64,000 bases of DNA from a virus, in the IMG/VR virus record IMGVR_UViG_3300042503_000838, positions 1 to 64,000 of that record; one strand, written 5' to 3'. A model generated the notes under the pieces. It did not search any database. It was not told where the DNA came from and saw only the letters and a program-made list of their open reading frames with translations. Made by a program: the position numbers and the translations under genes. Shown here one piece after another: positions 1-59,376 of the stretch (within the stretch, counting starts at the first letter, position 1; the number at the start of each line of letters is the position of its first letter).

Positions 1-131
1 TCCAGAGAACAAAGCTATTCGCTGTGATGTTTCAGCAGGTATATTTGCGGAAACAAACAACTTGCCAGTGCTGATATTTGTGCCTCCAATAAGCAGCGCA
101 CCGGCGCTAGTCAGCCTCATCCGCTCCGTCG
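1..131. repeat. Left-edge segment repeated at 41263-41393
   Basis: Window bases 1-131 match 41263-41393 with two differences seen. Both copies lie in fibre genes coding for the same part (NISTGKLFVSANIPAETSQR). Because the match starts at base 1, its full length lies outside the window. Confidence 0.9.
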
Positions 132-1755
132 TGGTGCTTGCTCCGTCGGCGGTAGTGGAGAACACTAATCTAGACGGAGTATCACCACTTCCGCTTGCTG
201 CATCTGCAACAGCAGTAATCGTGGCTCGTGCATCAGCTAAGCCATCGCCAAACCAGATGGTCCCCAAATCAGTGTCAACTGCCGTGGCATTGCTACCACG
301 CTTAATTTGAATAACGCCTACTCCTGTTGGAGTACCTGGAAAGCCTGCAACAGTTAACAATGAGTTGGCAGCGCTCGAAGACGTGCCAACTAAGAGCCTG
401 CCGGAGCTATCAATCCGCATAGCCTCCACGCCGCCTTCAGTAAACGCAAGCGTGTCAGCTGTGGGACTGTAGATGCCGGTGTTGGGGTCGCCAGTAAAGC
501 TGTAGGTCGGGGCTGCGGCACTGCCAAGGCTTACGGCCTCAATCTGGCCACTGGCATCGATACGCAGTCGCTCCGTCGTGTTAGTGGCAAAAGAAAGTTG
601 ATTTGCTGCGCTGAGGTAGAGCCCGTTCGCGGGAACCGTGCTGCTGGTAGGAATGAAGCTGGCGGCGGTGCTAGTGCCAGTGGACGTGACGTTCTGGCTA
701 CCGAAGTTTGGGCTGATTTTGGTGCCGGCAATGGCGGCCGATGCGTTTACGTCGCCGTTAACGATGGTGCCGTCAGCAATTTTATTGCTGGTGACAGCTC
801 CAGCATCAATAGTCCAAACCGTACCAGAACCGCTAACAGTAATATCACCGTAATCGGCGTCTCCAATACCAGCAGCTACAGACGTATCTACGTAAAGTTT
901 GGTAGCAGCATCAGTGTTTGCTGTAGGTGTACCAAGCCCAGTAATTTTATTGGAGCCCATGTCTAGGGCACCGCTCATCGTGTCGCCAGTAACGTTTATA
1001 TAGCGAGCATCGTAACGAGCGTCAGAAGCGCTAGTTGTAAAGAAACTGGTGTCATCAGGGGTGCTAATACTTTGCTGTGCGTTAGTGACAACAGTAGCTG
1101 CGTTTAACTTAGCGCTAGTAATTACACCGTCAGCAATCTTGGCTGTAGTAACAGCAGAGTCAACTAGCTTTGCAGTTGAAATACTGGCGTTAGTAACACC
1201 GACAGTAATTTGACCGCTACTGGGGCTGTTGTCGGTAACAGTAATTGAATCTCCAGCAACAACATCAGTTGTTAAAGCTGTATCAATTTTGGAGTCAACC
1301 CGAGCATCAATAGCTCCAGTAGTGGCTGCTTGAGAATTATTAGAAACCCAAGTTTCATTGCTACCAATAAAACCACCAAGAGCACTAAGATCACCAGTGC
1401 CGCTAGTAAGAGCACCATAAGTGTCAGAAAACTCTTGAAGACCGTAACGAATTTGATTATCAGCGTTGTTAAGGTCTTGGGCTGTCAGCGTAGAACCAGC
1501 TGTGTAAACCACAGTGGCATCACTAATATCAGTAACCCTAGAAATAATGATGCTTGCGTTTGTAACTGGAGTTGCAAGAACAATAGAAGTTCCAGCGGTG
1601 TTAAAGGTATATTGAGTGCTTTGAGTAAGGACAACACCGTTAACAGTTACTGAAATATCAGACTGACGAAGATACGGAATTGGATCTCCTTCGCTATTAG
1701 TAAGAGCAAAGGTAGTACCAGAAGCACTGGTGTAGGTAATCGATGCGTAAGCCAT
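1..1755 (-). CDS. Tail fibre protein, T7 gp17-like N-terminus (partial, runs off left edge)
   Basis: An open frame of 585 codons reads from an ATG at 1755 to the window edge with no stop. It begins MAYASITYTS and continues with a T7-type fibre N-terminus (SEGDPIPYLRQSDISVTVNG), the part that in gp17 binds the tail. A beta-rich shaft follows with repeats such as GDADYGDITVSGSGTVWTIDAG and ITSAKLNAATVVTNAQQS. The last 40 or so visible codons nearly match the fibre at 41.3 kb, which ends in a self-cleaving S74 chaperone, so this gene probably ends the same way beyond the edge. The ATG overlaps the stop of the upstream internal virion gene (TAATG). It is the last gene of the virion operon, as in T7. 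Confidence 0.85.
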   Translation of the reverse strand, partial: MAYASITYTSASGTTFALTNSEGDPIPYLRQSDISVTVNGVVLTQSTQYTFNTAGTSIVLATPVTNASIIISRVTDISDATVVYTAGSTLTAQDLNNADNQIRYGLQEFSDTYGALTSGTGDLSALGGFIGSNETWVSNNSQAATTGAIDARVDSKIDTALTTDVVAGDSITVTDNSPSSGQITVGVTNASISTAKLVDSAVTTAKIADGVITSAKLNAATVVTNAQQSISTPDDTSFFTTSASDARYDARYINVTGDTMSGALDMGSNKITGLGTPTANTDAATKLYVDTSVAAGIGDADYGDITVSGSGTVWTIDAGAVTSNKIADGTIVNGDVNASAAIAGTKISPNFGSQNVTSTGTSTAASFIPTSSTVPANGLYLSAANQLSFATNTTERLRIDASGQIEAVSLGSAAAPTYSFTGDPNTGIYSPTADTLAFTEGGVEAMRIDSSGRLLVGTSSSAANSLLTVAGFPGTPTGVGVIQIKRGSNATAVDTDLGTIWFGDGLADARATITAVADAASGSGDTPSRLVFSTTADGASTTTERMRLTSAGALLIGGTNISTGKLFVSANIPAETSQRIALFSG

Positions 1756-28840: not shown

Positions 28841-29419
28841 TCAGAAGTCAGCGTCGCCGCTAACAGTAGCAAGTTCTTTGAGGTTTGGTTTGCTTTGCTT
28901 GAACCCAGCTTGCTTTTTGAAAGCTTTGGTTACGTCAAAGTCACCACGGTCGCTACCCGTGATAGTTACCGCCTCAAGCACTTGAATGCCCTTAGGGCAA
29001 AGCCGAAGGCCTCCCTTGGGGCTCTTGCGGGGAATGTAGGTGGGTTTCACAGCAACCAACACTTCAGAGCCCTCACACAGCTTCAGATCACGAGCAATGG
29101 GTTGTAGCTCAGTGTCGATCACAGGCAGAGGGAACTCCTCATAGGCCAGCTTGGCGGTCAGTTTGACCAGCAGTGAGCCATCCTCATTGGCCTCAAACGG
29201 GGCATCGAAGAAAGCTTTACGACCCGTGGCATCACGCCACCAAGCACAAGCTTTGTCGTACTCCTCACCAAGCTCCTCAAGCAGCTCCTCAGCAGTAGCA
29301 CCACAGCTACCACCATCGGTTACCAAGATCTTTAGACGGAAGTCACAGGGCTCACCGTTGTAGGTCGGAGTCTTGTAGAAGTCGGGGATCCAACCGGTCA
29401 GCTTTCCTTGGACCTGCAT
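28841..29419 (-). CDS. Single-stranded DNA-binding protein, T7 gp2.5-like
   Basis: A 192-aa OB-fold protein whose gene order (just before endonuclease I) and ending suggest gp2.5. The C-terminus is LATVSGDADF with a terminal Phe after acidic residues. In gp2.5 the last Phe and acidic tail contact polymerase and primase-helicase. The middle has an acidic stretch (EELLEELGEEYDKA) and a strand VLVAVKPTYIPRKSPKGG. It is the first gene of the minus-strand replication operon, facing a divergent operon across 229 bases. Confidence 0.8.
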   Translation of the reverse strand: MQVQGKLTGWIPDFYKTPTYNGEPCDFRLKILVTDGGSCGATAEELLEELGEEYDKACAWWRDATGRKAFFDAPFEANEDGSLLVKLTAKLAYEEFPLPVIDTELQPIARDLKLCEGSEVLVAVKPTYIPRKSPKGGLRLCPKGIQVLEAVTITGSDRGDFDVTKAFKKQAGFKQSKPNLKELATVSGDADF

Positions 29420-29648
29420 TTGCGCTTTAACGCGAAAGGACCCACAGAAGGTACCCCCAGAACTTACGCCTTGGAGAGGGCTCTTGGGACAGCTCTCAAA
29501 GTGGCCTTAAAGGGGTGGCAGGAGAGGTCCTCTCTAATTACCTTTAGATAGCTCTTTTAAAGAGGGTTTTAAAGAGGCTCTTCTGCTGTACCTCTTTAAG
29601 ACCTCTTTCTTAGAGATACTTTAGTACCACTTAAAGAGGTCCTTACTA
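29420..29648. promoter_or_regulatory. Divergent intergenic region with CTCTTTAAA-type repeats
   Basis: 229 bases between the divergent SSB gene and the plus-strand cassette. It is full of short related words (CTCTTTAA, TTTAAAGAG, GAGGTCC), some forming small palindromes, and holds the 24-bp element at 29589-29612 that recurs near 34.5 kb. Promoters for both operons must lie here. No clear T7-type or sigma-70 promoter could be picked out by eye. Confidence 0.55.
29589..29612 (+). repeat. 24-bp element upstream of the plus-strand cassette (copy 1)
   Basis: A 24-base sequence starting TACCTCTTTAAGACC is identical, on the opposite strand, to 34525-34548. Each copy lies upstream of an operon in the same orientation relative to it: here about 40 bases before the first ATG of the plus-strand cassette, at 34.5 kb about 100 bases before ThyX. 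That suggests a shared promoter or regulator site rather than chance. Confidence 0.6.
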
Positions 29649-29783
29649 ATGACATCCAACACTTCCAGTCACAAGCGTATGACTGATGAAGAACTTGATA
29701 AGTTCTTGGAAACCTTCTGGGAAGACATTGATAACACCCATGAAGATTCCGACAGTGTTGTGATTGAAGAGGAAGTTAAGTGA
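29649..29783 (+). CDS. 44-aa acidic protein, first gene of the plus-strand cassette
   Basis: Begins MTSNTSSHKRMTDEELDKFL and is strongly acidic toward the end (VVIEEEVK). Its stop overlaps a GTG start (GTGA). It is the first reading frame after the 24-bp element, and its AT-rich codon use resembles the phage core rather than the GC-rich genes further on. Function unknown. Confidence 0.6.
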   Translation: MTSNTSSHKRMTDEELDKFLETFWEDIDNTHEDSDSVVIEEEVK

Positions 29784-29935
29784 ACAACGCTTCCCTGTCT
29801 GTTGAAGAGATTATTGAAGAGTATCAACACGCTCGTGATGAGTACAAACGAGCTGTTGGTGATCGAGATCGTGATTATTGGGATGGCTATCTAGCCGGTA
29901 TTGAAGCTGTTCTTCCTGAGGTATCTCACCGATGA
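29780..29935 (+). CDS. 51-aa protein, second gene of the plus-strand cassette
   Basis: A GTG start in a GTGA overlap opens a frame with SLSVEEIIEEYQHARDEYKR and RDYWDGYLAGIEAVLPEV, a helical, charged pattern. The stop overlaps the next ATG (ATGA at 29932). Overlaps at both ends support it. A helix-turn-helix of two long helices seems likely. Function unknown. Confidence 0.65.
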   Translation: MNNASLSVEEIIEEYQHARDEYKRAVGDRDRDYWDGYLAGIEAVLPEVSHR

Positions 29936-30279
29936 ACCACCCCATCACCCCACCGCCGGAGCTGGTGGAGCAGTGGATTGAGGAAACAAGGTCTCACGAC
30001 TGCATCGGCGCATACCCTGCGGATTTGGAACAATGTGTCGCCACCCGCGCTGCCCAGTGGGGTAGCGACCAGGAGCTGGAGGCGTGCTGTGAGTATCTGG
30101 TGCGCTGCGCCCAATGGGAGCCAGAGGATGTCGCAGAACTCCGCGCCGCCCGCCGTCCACAACCCCAGACGCTGAACAGCATTGCGATGCAGATGCTGGG
30201 AACGATTGAGCGCGATGGCCACTACATCCCTGAGATCACTGACACCATCCGCCGCGCACTGGAGCAACTCAATGACTGA
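29932..30279 (+). CDS. Hypothetical protein of the ITPPPELV type
   Basis: A 115-aa protein opening NHPITPPPELVEQWIEE, with AAQWGSDQELEACCEYLVR, ELRAARRPQPQTLNSIAMQ and a C-terminal IRRALEQLND. Proteins of this make-up recur in phages and genomes of marine and freshwater Synechococcus. No function is known. GC content and codon use rise sharply from here to 31.17 kb compared with the AT-rich phage core, so the segment probably came from a GC-rich cyanobacterial gene pool. Confidence 0.75.
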   Translation: MNHPITPPPELVEQWIEETRSHDCIGAYPADLEQCVATRAAQWGSDQELEACCEYLVRCAQWEPEDVAELRAARRPQPQTLNSIAMQMLGTIERDGHYIPEITDTIRRALEQLND

Positions 30280-30559
30280 CTACCGCGCCCTGTGCGCCCG
30301 CATGGCTGACGAGCTAGATCGTTACCGCCAGCTCCTGATGGATGATCGCCGTGAAACTCATGCGTTGGCGGCTGAAGCCCGCGCCGCCCTGGCCCAGCCC
30401 GAGCCGCAGGGGCCGACGGATGAAGAGCTGCACGACCTGTGGGATCAGGAAGGCCCTGAGGCTGACTTCCAAGAGTGCCGCCGCTTTGCCCGCGCCGTCC
30501 TTGCCAAATGGGGCCGCCCCGCCATCGAGCCGGTGCCGCAGCAGGAGGCTGAGCAATGA
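30272..30559 (+). CDS. Hypothetical protein with PTDEEL and FARAVLAKWGRP motifs
   Basis: The ATG at 30272 overlaps the previous stop by 8 bases and gives 95 aa: TDYRALCARMADELDRYRQ, a variable helical part, then QPEPQGPTDEELHDLWDQEG and RFARAVLAKWGRPAIEPVPQ. An upstream in-frame ATG at 30182 lies inside the previous gene and adds an unrelated leader. It belongs to the same cyanobacterial/cyanophage pool of small GC-rich genes. Function unknown. Confidence 0.7.
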   Translation: MTDYRALCARMADELDRYRQLLMDDRRETHALAAEARAALAQPEPQGPTDEELHDLWDQEGPEADFQECRRFARAVLAKWGRPAIEPVPQQEAEQ

Positions 30560-30729
30560 CTGACCCCTCCCCCGCCGCTCAGGCGATTCTGGATGCCGTG
30601 CGCGAAATCTGCCCTGCGCCTGCCGATGAGATTGCCTCTGCCGCCCTGCGAGCTGCTGCTGTGTACTGCACACGCGAACGACGCATCTTGATGACCATCG
30701 CCGCCGAGCTGGAGGGTGGCAATGTGTAA
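30556..30729 (+). CDS. 57-aa protein, related to the next cassette gene
   Basis: Starts MTDPSPAAQAILDAVREICP in an ATGA overlap, with AALRAAAVYCTR and a C-terminal LMTIAAELEGGNV. The pattern SPAAQAI...AALRAAA...IAAELE returns in the following gene, so the two look like diverged copies. Short, helical and Ala-rich. Function unknown. Confidence 0.7.
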   Translation: MTDPSPAAQAILDAVREICPAPADEIASAALRAAAVYCTRERRILMTIAAELEGGNV

Positions 30730-30985
30730 CAAATCGCAGGGTTTTTACGGTTTGAACAGTACGCTTTCCCCCGCCGCGCAGGCGATCGAAGACGCATACT
30801 TCAACGCCGATGGCTTTGGCTACCAAGCCGGTCTCGCTGCCGCTCTCCGCGCTGCTGCCGATCAGGTATTAGCTGCTCAGTGGGAAGGACGAATAGAACC
30901 CGATACAGCGCACAGTCTCGGCATCAATTGGACCCGCGATGCGCTCCTCGCCATCGCTGAAGAGCTGGAGGCCCTCAATGACTGA
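30722..30985 (+). CDS. 87-aa protein, SPAAQAI family
   Basis: The ATG at 30722 overlaps the previous stop region. The protein contains LSPAAQAIEDAYFN, AGLAAALRAAADQVLAAQW and a C-terminal RDALLAIAEELEALND. It is a longer relative of the preceding gene. Similar small proteins (AALRAAADQV...ILAIAxELE) occur in Synechococcus phages. Function unknown. The last bases overlap the next ATG. Confidence 0.7.
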   Translation: MCNKSQGFYGLNSTLSPAAQAIEDAYFNADGFGYQAGLAAALRAAADQVLAAQWEGRIEPDTAHSLGINWTRDALLAIAEELEALND

Positions 30986-31175
30986 CCTCAACTGCCCCGT
31001 GGCAGCTTGTGTTGAAGCGTACTGGGACAACGAGCGCTTTTCCAACTCTCTAATTGACGCCCCAGAGCGGATGCAAGCGGCCTTTGACGTACTCGCTGAG
31101 TGGTGTGACCTGCTGTGCTATTCAGACACCGCCAAGAGGCTTAGAGAGGCCTCTGAGGAGGTTCTGGTAACCTAG
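30978..31175 (+). CDS. 65-aa protein, last gene of the plus-strand cassette
   Basis: Starts MTDLNCPVAACVEAYWDNER in an overlap with the previous stop and continues MQAAFDVLAEWCDLLCYS. It shares the MTD opening and helical, Ala-rich style of its neighbours and ends at a small hairpin. The next gene is convergent. Function unknown. Confidence 0.65.
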   Translation: MTDLNCPVAACVEAYWDNERFSNSLIDAPERMQAAFDVLAEWCDLLCYSDTAKRLREASEEVLVT

Positions 31176-31184
31176 GTAGTTACC
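31166..31184. terminator. Small hairpin between convergent genes
   Basis: GGTAAC and GTTACC arms with a 7-base loop lie across the end of the plus-strand cassette, at the stop of the convergent gene. There is no T run, so it is at most a weak bidirectional terminator. Confidence 0.3.
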
Positions 31185-31570
31185 TAAGGGTCAAGGCCAC
31201 CGTCGTTTCCTTCTTCGTACAGAGACTCGAAATCTCCTTCTTCATTCAAGAAGTAACACTCGCTGTTCTTGATCCTTTGGTAGTCACCCTCCAACAGGTC
31301 AGCAAATGAACCGACTAACGATTGGCACAACGCTGCTTCTAACACTGATTTATGAAGCGTCGTTTGTGCCAGTACAACTTGCTCTAAAGTCTCAGACTCC
31401 TCTTCTTCCTCCTCACCCGCTTCGCTATTCATTTCCAGATACTCCAAACACTGATTGGCGCGTGATTGAAGCACCTGCATACGTGCCATCAAAAGGGGTA
31501 TATACTGCTTTGCCACTTGCTTAAGCGGCGCGTAGAACTTCTCCCTTCCAGACATAGTGGGTTGTGTCAC
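31184..31570 (-). CDS. Acidic 128-aa hypothetical protein
   Basis: The frame opens with GTG at 31570, overlapping the stop of a 28-aa frame (GTGA). A second possible start is the ATG at 31555. The middle has an acidic run (SEAGEEEEEESETLEQ) and the C-terminus is also acidic (YEEGNDGGLDP). The N-terminal half is helical (YIPLLMARMQVLQSRANQCL). No family recognised. It lies downstream of a Fur-box-like palindrome. Confidence 0.6.
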   Translation of the reverse strand: MTQPTMSGREKFYAPLKQVAKQYIPLLMARMQVLQSRANQCLEYLEMNSEAGEEEEEESETLEQVVLAQTTLHKSVLEAALCQSLVGSFADLLEGDYQRIKNSECYFLNEEGDFESLYEEGNDGGLDP

Positions 31571-34524: not shown

Positions 34525-34548
34525 TAAGAAAGAGGTCTTAAAGAGGTA
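34525..34548 (-). repeat. 24-bp element upstream of ThyX (copy 2)
   Basis: Identical to 29589-29612 on the opposite strand. On the minus strand it runs TACCTCTTTAAGACC toward ThyX. Two further TTTAAGACC-like words follow downstream of it, suggesting a repeated binding motif. Confidence 0.6.
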
Positions 34549-34698
34549 ACAGCTAAAGACCTCTTTTAAAGAAGACTCTTTAAGTACCTCTTTAAATACC
34601 TTTAAAAGGAGTCTAACTACGCTGTCAAGTACCCCTCTCCAAGAGCGTATCTCTTAAAGGGGGGTCTCTTTGCGTATCACCTAGAGGGGCTTTTACCG

Positions 34699-40809: not shown

Positions 40810-41904
40810 CTACACGCCCTCAAGGGCTGCAACTTTGGCTTCGATGGTTTCGATCTTGGCGATGGCTTCTTGGAGCGCTTTCACCAACCGTGCCTCTGTT
40901 TTGCTCCAACCAGTAACGGTAAGCATGTCGTCGGTACCCTGGGCAACAGCGTCTGGATATACCTGCTCCATCTCCTGCGCAATAAAACCAATTTGATGAC
41001 CACTACCATCTTTGTAATCAAATTCAACTGGCCTTAAGCTGCAGATATTTTGTAGTTGTGAAGGGATGTCGACGATATTTTCTTTCAACCTGGCATCTGA
41101 AAAACTTCCAAATGCGGCGGCGCCACTACCATTCGCGTTAATTTGCCCGCTGCCACCAGTGCCGTTGTTGATGTAGAAACGCTGGAAGATCTGCGCAGTT
41201 GTGGAGTTGTTGTCAAACTTAGATATAGCAATTCCTTCAAGAATGGCATCGCCGGCTCCGCTTCCAGAGAACAAAGCTATTCGCTGTGATGTTTCAGCAG
41301 GTATATTTGCGGAAACAAACAACTTGCCAGTGCTGATATTTGTGCCTCCAATAAGCAGCGCACCGGTGCTAGTCAACCTCATCCGCTCCGTCGGACTAGC
41401 CGCGCCGTCTGCAGTAGTGGAGAACACTAGGCGGCCTGGCATGTCACCAGATGCGCCAGGGGTGCCGTCTACAAAAGCAACAATGCTTGCTGCTTGATCA
41501 AAGCTCGTGCCATTGGCGCCACTAAAAGAAATAGCTCCAAGTGCATCTCCGCTGGCAACAATTGTGTTCGTTCCTTTCGTTGCAGACTTGGACCGGCCTA
41601 GGACGATGCCAGCCGGGTCGCCAGCGACAGAGGAGTATCTTGTAGCAGTGATATAAGAATCCGCTGAAGTGCCAACAATCTGCAACGCACCGTCTAGGAG
41701 GTTGTTAACGCTAGTAGACGTGCCAACTAAGAGCCTGCCACTGGCATCCGTCCGCCATCTCTCTGTACCACCCGTACTAGCGATAATGACATCACTCCCA
41801 AAGCTGATGCCGGTGTTGGTATCTGTACCCTGCAGAGCTGGTGTAGCAGCTGAACCGTCTACACCGGAGATGCCAGATGTACCGTTGATGTAAAGAGGTG
41901 CCAT
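40810..41904 (-). CDS. Tail fibre with C-terminal S74 intramolecular chaperone
   Basis: From the ATG at 41904 (MAPLYINGTSGISGVDGSAA) a 364-aa beta-rich fibre with the shaft unit ERMRLTSTGALLIGGTNIST. The C-terminal 100 residues are a peptidase S74 domain: FSDARLKENIVDIPSQL (Ser and Lys of the self-cleavage site), HQIGFIAQEMEQVYPDAVA and a last helix. S74 domains help trimerise fibres, then cut themselves off. Part of the gene is almost identical to the left-edge fibre. Upstream Met at 41946 would overlap the previous gene. Confidence 0.88.
   Translation of the reverse strand: MAPLYINGTSGISGVDGSAATPALQGTDTNTGISFGSDVIIASTGGTERWRTDASGRLLVGTSTSVNNLLDGALQIVGTSADSYITATRYSSVAGDPAGIVLGRSKSATKGTNTIVASGDALGAISFSGANGTSFDQAASIVAFVDGTPGASGDMPGRLVFSTTADGAASPTERMRLTSTGALLIGGTNISTGKLFVSANIPAETSQRIALFSGSGAGDAILEGIAISKFDNNSTTAQIFQRFYINNGTGGSGQINANGSGAAAFGSFSDARLKENIVDIPSQLQNICSLRPVEFDYKDGSGHQIGFIAQEMEQVYPDAVAQGTDDMLTVTGWSKTEARLVKALQEAIAKIETIEAKVAALEGV
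41263..41393. repeat. Near-identical copy of window bases 1-131
   Basis: 131 bases match positions 1-131 with two differences seen. The match reaches the first base of the window, so its true length is unknown. Upstream of it, in the transcription sense, the two fibre genes are still related but more diverged (for example GACGTGCCAACTAAGAGCCT in both). Confidence 0.9.
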
Positions 41905-56957: not shown

Positions 56958-58048
56958 TAGAAGGTCATCTCAGTGGTGTCGATGCGGCAGACCCACCTGA
57001 TCGTGGTGGCCGCTGCACCAGTGACGGTGATGGTGATGCAGCCGATGGCGGTATTTGCTGTGACGGCGACAACCCACGTAGCAGCGCCAGCATCGAAATG
57101 CGTCATGGTGACCGTAGGCGTGCCGACCATCACTGTGGATGCGGCGTTAGCACCACGCTTGATGGCGCCGTTGATGGTCCAGCGGGCTGTGTTGCCGCCG
57201 CCGGTCACGCCAGCAATCACTTCACCAGAGAAGCTGTAGGCGCTGTTATTGGGCAGGGTGACTTGGTTGCTGAAGTTGGCTGCGCTGCTGTTGCTGGCGA
57301 GGACTGTGGCGGTGGCGTCGGTAGTTTGACGGCCAAGGATTAGCAAGGCAGTTTGACTGGCGCCTGAAATCGATGCGACTGGCGAATTGCACGCGGGCAA
57401 TACGTGATTGCCAATGATACTTCGTGTGGTACCGCGGCGTCCACCGGCAATAAAGGAATAAGCTGAGTTTGCTGTATTGGACTCTCCGCCAGCAACAGTA
57501 GCACTTGAGTCACTGGCGGTGTTGCTAACACCTCCTCCAACGACCGAATAGCCGCCACTTGCAATGTTGTTTTGCCCCCCACACACCGTTGCGTGGCCGG
57601 CGGTGGCGCCGTTGGTTTGGCCGCCACCTACGAAGCCGTGACCGCTATTGGCAAAATTGTCTCTGCCTGTAGCAACTCCAGAGTAATCGCCAGAAGCGAC
57701 ATTTAAAAAACCTCCTCCAACGGTGCCCCAGCTGCCACTAGCGCGGTTTCGCTCACCGCCGCCAATGGTTGACGATGGTGCGCTTGCTACGTGGTCGGAA
57801 CTGTTGCGTGACTTCTGCCAATCCGTGGCCCCAGCGCCCCGCTTATTGCCACCCGCCACCGTCCCATCCGGCACCTGCGCCAGCGTTGCGCCTGTGCCCT
57901 TGGCGACCAAGGCGATGTCCGCGTTGGTTGCGCTGATCGTGCCACCGTTGATCTCGGTGACTGGTGTGGTGCTGTTGACGCCATCACTGTCTAGCCGCGC
58001 CAGTAGACGCAGCACCGCAGATGGCCAGCCGATAGGATTCAGGTTCAT
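56957..58048 (-). CDS. Trimeric beta-roll tail fibre (YadA-like repeats)
   Basis: The 363-aa protein has a repeat region at about residues 95-210 of GGGxxNxAxGxxSxVxGG units (GYSVVGGGVSNTASDSSATV), like the left-handed roll of YadA/Hep_Hag head repeats. The N-terminus NLNPIGWPSAVLRLLARLDS and beta-sandwich C-terminus (VTVTGAAATTIRWVCRIDTT) complete the fibre. GC content is far above neighbouring genes. It is probably acquired and involved in adsorption. Confidence 0.75.
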   Translation of the reverse strand: MNLNPIGWPSAVLRLLARLDSDGVNSTTPVTEINGGTISATNADIALVAKGTGATLAQVPDGTVAGGNKRGAGATDWQKSRNSSDHVASAPSSTIGGGERNRASGSWGTVGGGFLNVASGDYSGVATGRDNFANSGHGFVGGGQTNGATAGHATVCGGQNNIASGGYSVVGGGVSNTASDSSATVAGGESNTANSAYSFIAGGRRGTTRSIIGNHVLPACNSPVASISGASQTALLILGRQTTDATATVLASNSSAANFSNQVTLPNNSAYSFSGEVIAGVTGGGNTARWTINGAIKRGANAASTVMVGTPTVTMTHFDAGAATWVVAVTANTAIGCITITVTGAAATTIRWVCRIDTTEMTF

Positions 58049-58440
58049 GTCAGGTCACCCCCGAACGCTGCAACCCGCACCGTGCCGGTCGTCGGTGCAA
58101 CCGTGATCGTGGCGCCCAGCTTCCATGTCGCGCTTGGTAGCACCAGATCGGTGTAGGCCGTCACCAGGCGGTAGCCCTTGGTGGTGTTGCTACCCGTCAA
58201 AGCGCTAATGGTTACTTGATCGAACAGGTCCCACTGCGTCCCATCGAACAAAAACAGGTTGACCAGTGCCGCCACCGTGGTCGCGGTGCCTTGGACGTTC
58301 ACGCTAAGGATCCGAGTGCCGGCAGATGCGCCAACAAGCAGGTCGCTGATCGTGCCGGTGCCATCGGTGGCGGTGTTCGCTGTGCTCAGCGACAGGCGCC
58401 CGATGCGCGGTGTTGAGATAAAGGCGGGTGATGCAGCCAT
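58045..58440 (-). CDS. Beta-rich virion protein
   Basis: 131 aa, MAASPAFISTPRIGRLSLST, then GTRILSVNVQGTATTVAALV and VTISALTGSNTTKGYRLVTA, all beta-rich. Overlaps the next fibre gene by 4 bases (ATGA), high GC. Likely a fibre or baseplate component. Not recognised. Confidence 0.6.
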   Translation of the reverse strand: MAASPAFISTPRIGRLSLSTANTATDGTGTISDLLVGASAGTRILSVNVQGTATTVAALVNLFLFDGTQWDLFDQVTISALTGSNTTKGYRLVTAYTDLVLPSATWKLGATITVAPTTGTVRVAAFGGDLT

Positions 58441-58443
58441 AAT

Positions 58444-59376
58444 TTAAATACAAGTAATGTTAAGGAACAGGTTGGCACCAGCTGAACTACCGCCGCCACC
58501 TGCTGGACCTGTGGCGCCAATAGGCCCTGTTGCACCAGTAACACCAACACCAGTAGCACCAGTAGCCCCTGTAATGCCTATTCCCGTAGCACCTGTCGCG
58601 CCGGTAACACCTACACCTGTGGCACCAATAGGTCCAGTAGCCCCCGTAATACCTACTCCTGTTGCGCCAGTAGGACCATCAATACCTGTTGCACCTGTAA
58701 TACCTACACCTGTGGCACCTTGTGAACCCGTGACACCAGTAGCGCCGGTAACACCTACTCCTGTAGCGCCCTGTAGACCTGTGGCGCCAGTAATACCTAT
58801 TCCCGTTGCACCAGTAATGCCTACACCTGTGGCACCTTGTGGACCTGTTGCACCTGTAATGCCTATTCCCGTTGCACCAGTAATGCCTACACCTGTGGCA
58901 CCTGTCGCACCAGTAATACCGACGCCCGTAGCACCAGCGGGACCTGTGACCCCGGTTGGCCCACCAGGATCCCCTTGCGGACCAGTGGCGCCAATCATTG
59001 TATAAACTTTTGCTAGACCACCTATGTCATATACAACCCAATCAGCATTTTCATTGAAAACTAAAGATTCCCCCTGTGCCAGGGAACCTTTCCATAGGGT
59101 AGTAAAACGCGTTCCATCCGTATGGTTAATTGTTAACGTGTTACTTCCTGTAGTTACATCGTTTTTAATAAAAACAGTTCTTACATTTCTTTGTGTTGTG
59201 TTTGCGGAAGGAGGAGGGACAATAGTTGTAGTGGTTGCTAAAGCAATAACGGAATCAAGGCGGCCAGCGGTAACAACCCCGTTATTGTTATCTGCATAAG
59301 ACGCATGCACTTCAATGTTACCAGCTGCACTGGTAATCACCTGCAAAGCATCAAATGTAGAAGTCAGCAGTAACAC
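58444..59376 (-). CDS. Collagen-like fibre protein
   Basis: The N-terminal 135 residues form a beta domain ending [20 protein letters not shown]. About 160 residues of collagen-type G-x-y repeats follow, mostly [12 protein letters not shown] and GPIGATG, then a short [18 protein letters not shown] end. Such repeats form triple helices in phage fibres. The near-exact DNA repeats allow length change by slippage. Flanked by other fibre and virion genes. Confidence 0.88.

Follow-up and report, generated by a model that had tools for sequence, protein, structure and literature searches.

Why do seven small genes run against all of their neighbors in a phage genome, and what are they doing there? 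The genes lie in a window of 64,000 nt, positions 1 to 64,000 of IMG/VR record IMGVR_UViG_3300042503_000838, where seven overlapping frames on the plus strand (g1 to g7) span 29649-31175 and both flanks are on the minus strand. The initial annotation, made from the letters alone, read them as a distinct GC-rich unit of possible host-takeover or anti-defense genes. The analysis described here supports the distinct opposite-strand unit, and places it within a wider family of viruses.

The complete record (125,842 bp, labeled G000) consists of two phages. The cassette belongs to a T7-like phage of ~41.3 kb that occupies bases 1 to about 41,262. Bases 1-167 recur at 41263-41429 with 93% identity, and when 41262 is linked to 1, a tail fiber gene of 735 aa stays open. 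The two phages meet within this tail fiber gene (window 1-167, 41263-41429, and 40815-40944; G000 125713-125842). The second phage, beyond about 41.3 kb of the window, has its own terminase, DNA polymerase and primase, and includes a further GC-rich stretch (window 57001-59000, 58-60%) with internal repeats at 58.5-58.95 kb. No RNA families or tRNAs were found in the window. Of the 3455 phage records that have a related helicase, Prochlorococcus phage P-RSP2 (HQ332139) is the closest to the cassette's phage; its helicase is 66% identical, and its major genes are collinear and in the same order. P-RSP2 is a known outlier among the cyanopodoviruses (PMC4646655, PMC9860041). On gene content and order, the cassette's phage can be assigned to a P-RSP2-like clade of T7-like cyanopodoviruses, and its relatives point to marine cyanobacteria as hosts.

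The seven frames are g1 (29649-29783, 44 aa), g2 (29780-29935, 51 aa, GTG start), g3 (29932-30279, 115 aa), g4 (30272-30559, 95 aa), g5 (30556-30729, 57 aa), g6 (30722-30985, 87 aa), and g7 (30978-31175, 65 aa). Successive frames overlap by 4 nt (GTGA/ATGA) or 8 nt (ATGACTGA, ATGTGTAA), and each is preceded by a Shine-Dalgarno-like site (GAGG/GGAG/GGAGG-like). As first described, g4, g5, and g7 begin MTD, and g5 and g6 are diverged copies within one family (SPAAQ...ALRAAA...IAAELE), with 52% amino acid identity over 31 aligned codons. The GC richness ascribed to the whole cassette applies to g3-g7 (56-67%) but not to g1 (41%) and g2 (46%), which have the GC content of the phage itself. The rise begins at g3, with 62.9% GC across 29932-30985 vs. 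46.5% for the rest of the phage, where the richest 1054-bp window elsewhere reaches 54.8%. Homologs of the frames were found in relatives, the conservation on which the initial annotation had made its reading depend, with dN/dS values mostly of 0.1-0.4. These are 0.11-0.22 for g7 (window comparisons), 0.27 for g1 (against contig L003), and, against the record's second phage, 0.37-0.38 for g3 and 0.26-0.44 for g5/g6. For g2 the values are 0.63-0.74 in window comparisons and 0.20-0.26 among close relatives. Those for g4 are 0.67-0.85, so the test lends little support to constraint on this gene. Taken with the ribosome-binding sites, the homologs and the dN/dS values indicate that the seven frames are real genes and not chance openings.

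Where do these genes occur in other phages? To the left of the cassette, the minus strand encodes a divergent gp2.5-like single-stranded DNA-binding protein (SSB, 28841-29419; phrog_112, 1.6e-4), endonuclease I (PF05367, 9.8e-29), helicase and DNA polymerase. To the right are the convergent m8 (31184-31570, minus strand; 45% identical in P-RSP2), thyX and terminase. Both SSB and m8 are conserved in relatives. Among 80 loci gathered by helicase, a count that takes in overlapping contigs and so does not represent independent events, the opposite strand of the SSB-m8 interval holds a g2 homolog in 40, a g7-family member in 35, and a g1 homolog in 20, and the genes between them vary. Direct searches of IMG/VR found g7 at 51 loci and g2 at 54, all between a divergent SSB and a convergent m8, with overlapping contigs counted here too. 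No g2 or g7 homolog was found outside this arrangement in the virus collection searched, and the layouts that deviate do so by overlapping the convergent m8 slightly or by lying farther from SSB. The island is therefore a fixed locus of the P-RSP2-like clade, with g1 and g2 as left core genes and g7 as the right one, and runs opposite to the genes for replication, structure and packaging.

Between these ends the content is exchanged. The gap from g2 to g7 ranges from -7 to 1046 nt across loci, the window having the largest, and the middle of the cassette is therefore an exchange slot (29936-30948, plus strand). In some strains it contains little or nothing; in the window it holds four genes (g3-g6). 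Contig L002 matches the window at 98.5% identity for 8.45 kb, as far as the g2 stop, and diverges after 29935, where another small gene and another version of g3 follow. Contig L231 is 94.9% identical rightwards from 30948, and before that point carries another g3-type and another g5-type gene. The strains thus switch at g2/g3 and at g6/g7, with breakpoints in L002 and L231 that lie 335-390 nt from contig ends. Since content differs between such close strains, exchange is recent. Conserved flanks around content that varies between strains mark the island out as a hotspot by sequence comparison, and the strains in which the slot is almost empty suggest that its content may be dispensable for growth.

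An accessory-gene hotspot is an already known kind of phage locus. Phage accessory-gene (moron) hotspots combine fixed flanks, variable small genes and deviant base composition, as the island does. It differs from the general case in that exchange takes place within a single operon whose ends are small core genes specific to the clade, and in drawing on a gene pool with a recurrent ATGACTGA gene joint. This pool is large and viral. Relatives of g3 occur in at least 547 viral stretches, those of g4 in 227, and those of g5/g6 in at least 54. Of 84,980 genomes of bacteria and archaea, one contains the g3 family, and host genomes are therefore not supported as its source. The single match (L227, 6001-6303) lies in a Microbacteriaceae metagenome bin, on a contig that also has g4- and g5-type genes and is probably a mis-binned phage contig. 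At 135 loci, members of the g3, g4, and g5/g6 families often adjoin, most commonly a g3-type followed by a g5-type gene, and neighbors frequently overlap (-4 or -8). In 77% of 116 loci, the families exceed the phage that carries them in GC content. The ATGACTGA joint is present at 81 of 185 distinct g3-family stops vs. 37 of the 1378 other long frames used as background.

The pool extends to other kinds of phage. A run of 415 nt that starts within g3 and ends shortly ahead of the g4 stop (30135-30549, plus strand) is identical to contig L328, which shares the C-terminal half of g3 at the nucleotide level and the first 94 aa of g4. The contig from which L328 comes measures 33.95 kb and encodes an SSB and a sigma factor along with related small genes. 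The g3-g4 part also recurs as a copy (78%) in the record's second phage, where a second g3-g4-g5 type module is situated at G000 94107-95442 (L086 10107-11442). An AP2-like gene follows that module (PF00847, 9.8e-5, below the cut-off). In S-CBS2 (gp065-gp068 region) and its relatives (phrog_32006), a g3 homolog likewise belongs to a row of small overlapping genes, located after SSB and an endonuclease. That row has the same direction as its neighbors, however, whereas the cassette is on the opposite strand, and S-CBS2 is of another phage type, has a sigma factor and lacks g1, g2, and g7. The g3, g4, and g5/g6 families thus belong to a large pool of small, GC-rich viral genes, common to the cassette's phage and to others including sigma-factor-carrying phages.

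What do the proteins themselves reveal? The initial annotation likened them to small proteins of Synechococcus phages. This is correct for g3, which resembles hypothetical proteins of S-CBS2, S-H1, and S-RIP1 and matches phrog_32006 over its full length (5e-22, residues 2-115), and holds weakly for g6 (cyanophage KBS-S-2A protein, 3e-4). It fails for g2, g4, and g7, which have no match among 50,697 phage records, so that the core genes g2 and g7 are known only from uncultivated relatives. None of g1-g7 matched Pfam, a functional PHROG or PADLOC, whose models describe defense and not anti-defense systems. An alignment-based model of g3, which took the place of a single-sequence fold (pLDDT 62), is predicted to be all helical (pLDDT 85, pTM 0.55). 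A fold search of g3 returned nothing significant in the PDB and only its own family in a viral library, and searches of solved structures with g3 and g7 profiles gave matches at chance level only. Longer relatives of g4 extend into a C-terminal region missing from g4. The domain DUF551 (PF04448) was considered for g4 and rejected, as it is unmatched by g4, by these longer relatives and by the record.

How might the island be transcribed? The divergent intergenic region between SSB and g1 (29420-29648) is the presumed regulatory region of both, and would contain the promoter of g1-g7, although a consensus scan found no sigma-70-like promoter. Nine TTAAAGAGG sites occur in the cassette's phage vs. 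0.36 expected from shuffles, four of them within 29420-29648. Intergenic clusters of these sites, in both orientations, are found at window 29557-29640 and 34538-34595, and could possibly be regulator sites or a replication origin. A conserved non-coding block upstream of SSB (window 29420-29500) includes TACCTTCTGTGGGTCCTTT, on the SSB strand, and CCACTTTAAAAGCTGTCC in 37 aligned relatives. A dyad upstream of SSB (GGCCA/GGACA..TGTCC) is counted as a conserved element only and not as a hairpin, because its pairing is broken in many alignment rows. T7-type RNA polymerase (PF00940) is absent from G000, P-RSP2, and five relative contigs in a search that detected the positive control S-RIP1 at 1.6e-70. 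With no such polymerase in the clade, host RNA polymerase presumably transcribes the island, which says nothing on timing.

These observations are probably best explained by an accessory-gene island at a fixed place between SSB and m8, with g1-g2 and g7 as core ends around a slot filled from the shared pool of small genes. Host RNA polymerase would start between SSB and g1 and read g1-g7 as a single mRNA, and the 4- and 8-nt overlaps would couple their translation. New modules may enter by recombination at shared gene ends, namely the conserved C-terminal halves and the ATGACTGA joint, in which case frames and coupling would stay intact. With less assurance, the products may be accessory proteins, small and helical, by which the phage adapts to particular hosts.

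A narrower form of this last idea, which makes the host-takeover or anti-defense reading of the initial annotation specific, is that the small proteins bind and block host defense or transcription factors early in infection. It is a reasonable contender, though somewhat less likely to be right than wrong. Turnover of content between strains within constant flanks is the pattern of arms-race genes, though an indirect sign, and the small size of the genes and their opposite-strand location fit as well. Against it, no known anti-defense or takeover family was matched (the PADLOC models being for defense), g3 has no relative of solved fold, and the slot can hold genes of quite another kind. In six distant relatives (L068, L071-L073, L075, and L076) the same opposite-strand slot is occupied by a beta-barrel gene (Phage_OMP PF24653, 1.5e-38 in one member) and a high-light-inducible (hli) gene (phrog_178, 5e-24 and 1e-17 in two members).

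Could the modules instead be passengers, selfish or neutral genes spread by phage recombination with no function for the phage? Their families occupy differing places in many unrelated phages and g4 is weakly constrained, as might be expected of such genes. This is nevertheless unlikely given the dN/dS values of g3 and g5/g6 in comparisons with the second phage, the retention of modules in small genomes, and their constant bounding by the constrained g2 and g7.

Less probable again is that the island is the clade's site for auxiliary metabolic genes, with small genes that act on host physiology and tune metabolism or photosynthesis. The hli and outer-membrane-protein genes of the distant relatives argue for this, as does P-RSP2. 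Like the cassette's phage, P-RSP2 has opposite-strand overlapping small genes flanked by SSB and an m8 homolog; in its case the slot has no g1-g7 homolog, and contains an hli gene followed by two small genes with overlapping starts. This hli gene is unannotated and encodes 35 aa (HQ332139 153-260 and 41895-42002; phrog_178, 3.8e-18). The ends of the P-RSP2 record carry a 513-bp repeat (99.6%) at the slot position, which could place the physical ends of that genome in the slot but may be an untrimmed assembly overlap. However, g1-g7 have no similarity to metabolic genes, and the hli-bearing relatives lack g2 and g7 homologs. That a foreign GC-rich piece was joined into the contig during assembly is highly improbable, for although the record is a chimera at another point, the tail fiber, and shares the 415 identical nt of g3-g4 with another phage, a separate record (L001) is 100% identical to the window across 11.8 kb through the island, g3/g2 and g7/g6 overlap in frame at both edges, and L003 keeps the order g1-g2-g3-g4-g7 at diverged identity.

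The accessory-gene island with its exchange slot thus stands ahead, and its features suggest a place for fast-changing host-interaction proteins. A more speculative extension, for which the odds are long, is that different kinds of cyanophage have in common a kit of small host-interaction genes with standardized ends (the ATGACTGA stop/start joint and conserved C-terminal halves). Such genes could recombine in frame into ready operons, with the g2|g7 slot as a dedicated opposite-strand receiver in P-RSP2-like podoviruses, in an integrase-free exchange driven by host defense.

For this clade, the island is a sharply bounded site where small cyanophage proteins swap between strains and between phage types. 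It brings hundreds of scattered hypothetical proteins of the g3, g4, and g5/g6 families together as one testable set, and provides a single locus at which host-linked variation can be read from metagenomes. The island is also evidence that genes have recently passed, in one direction or the other, between P-RSP2-like podoviruses and phages with a sigma factor.
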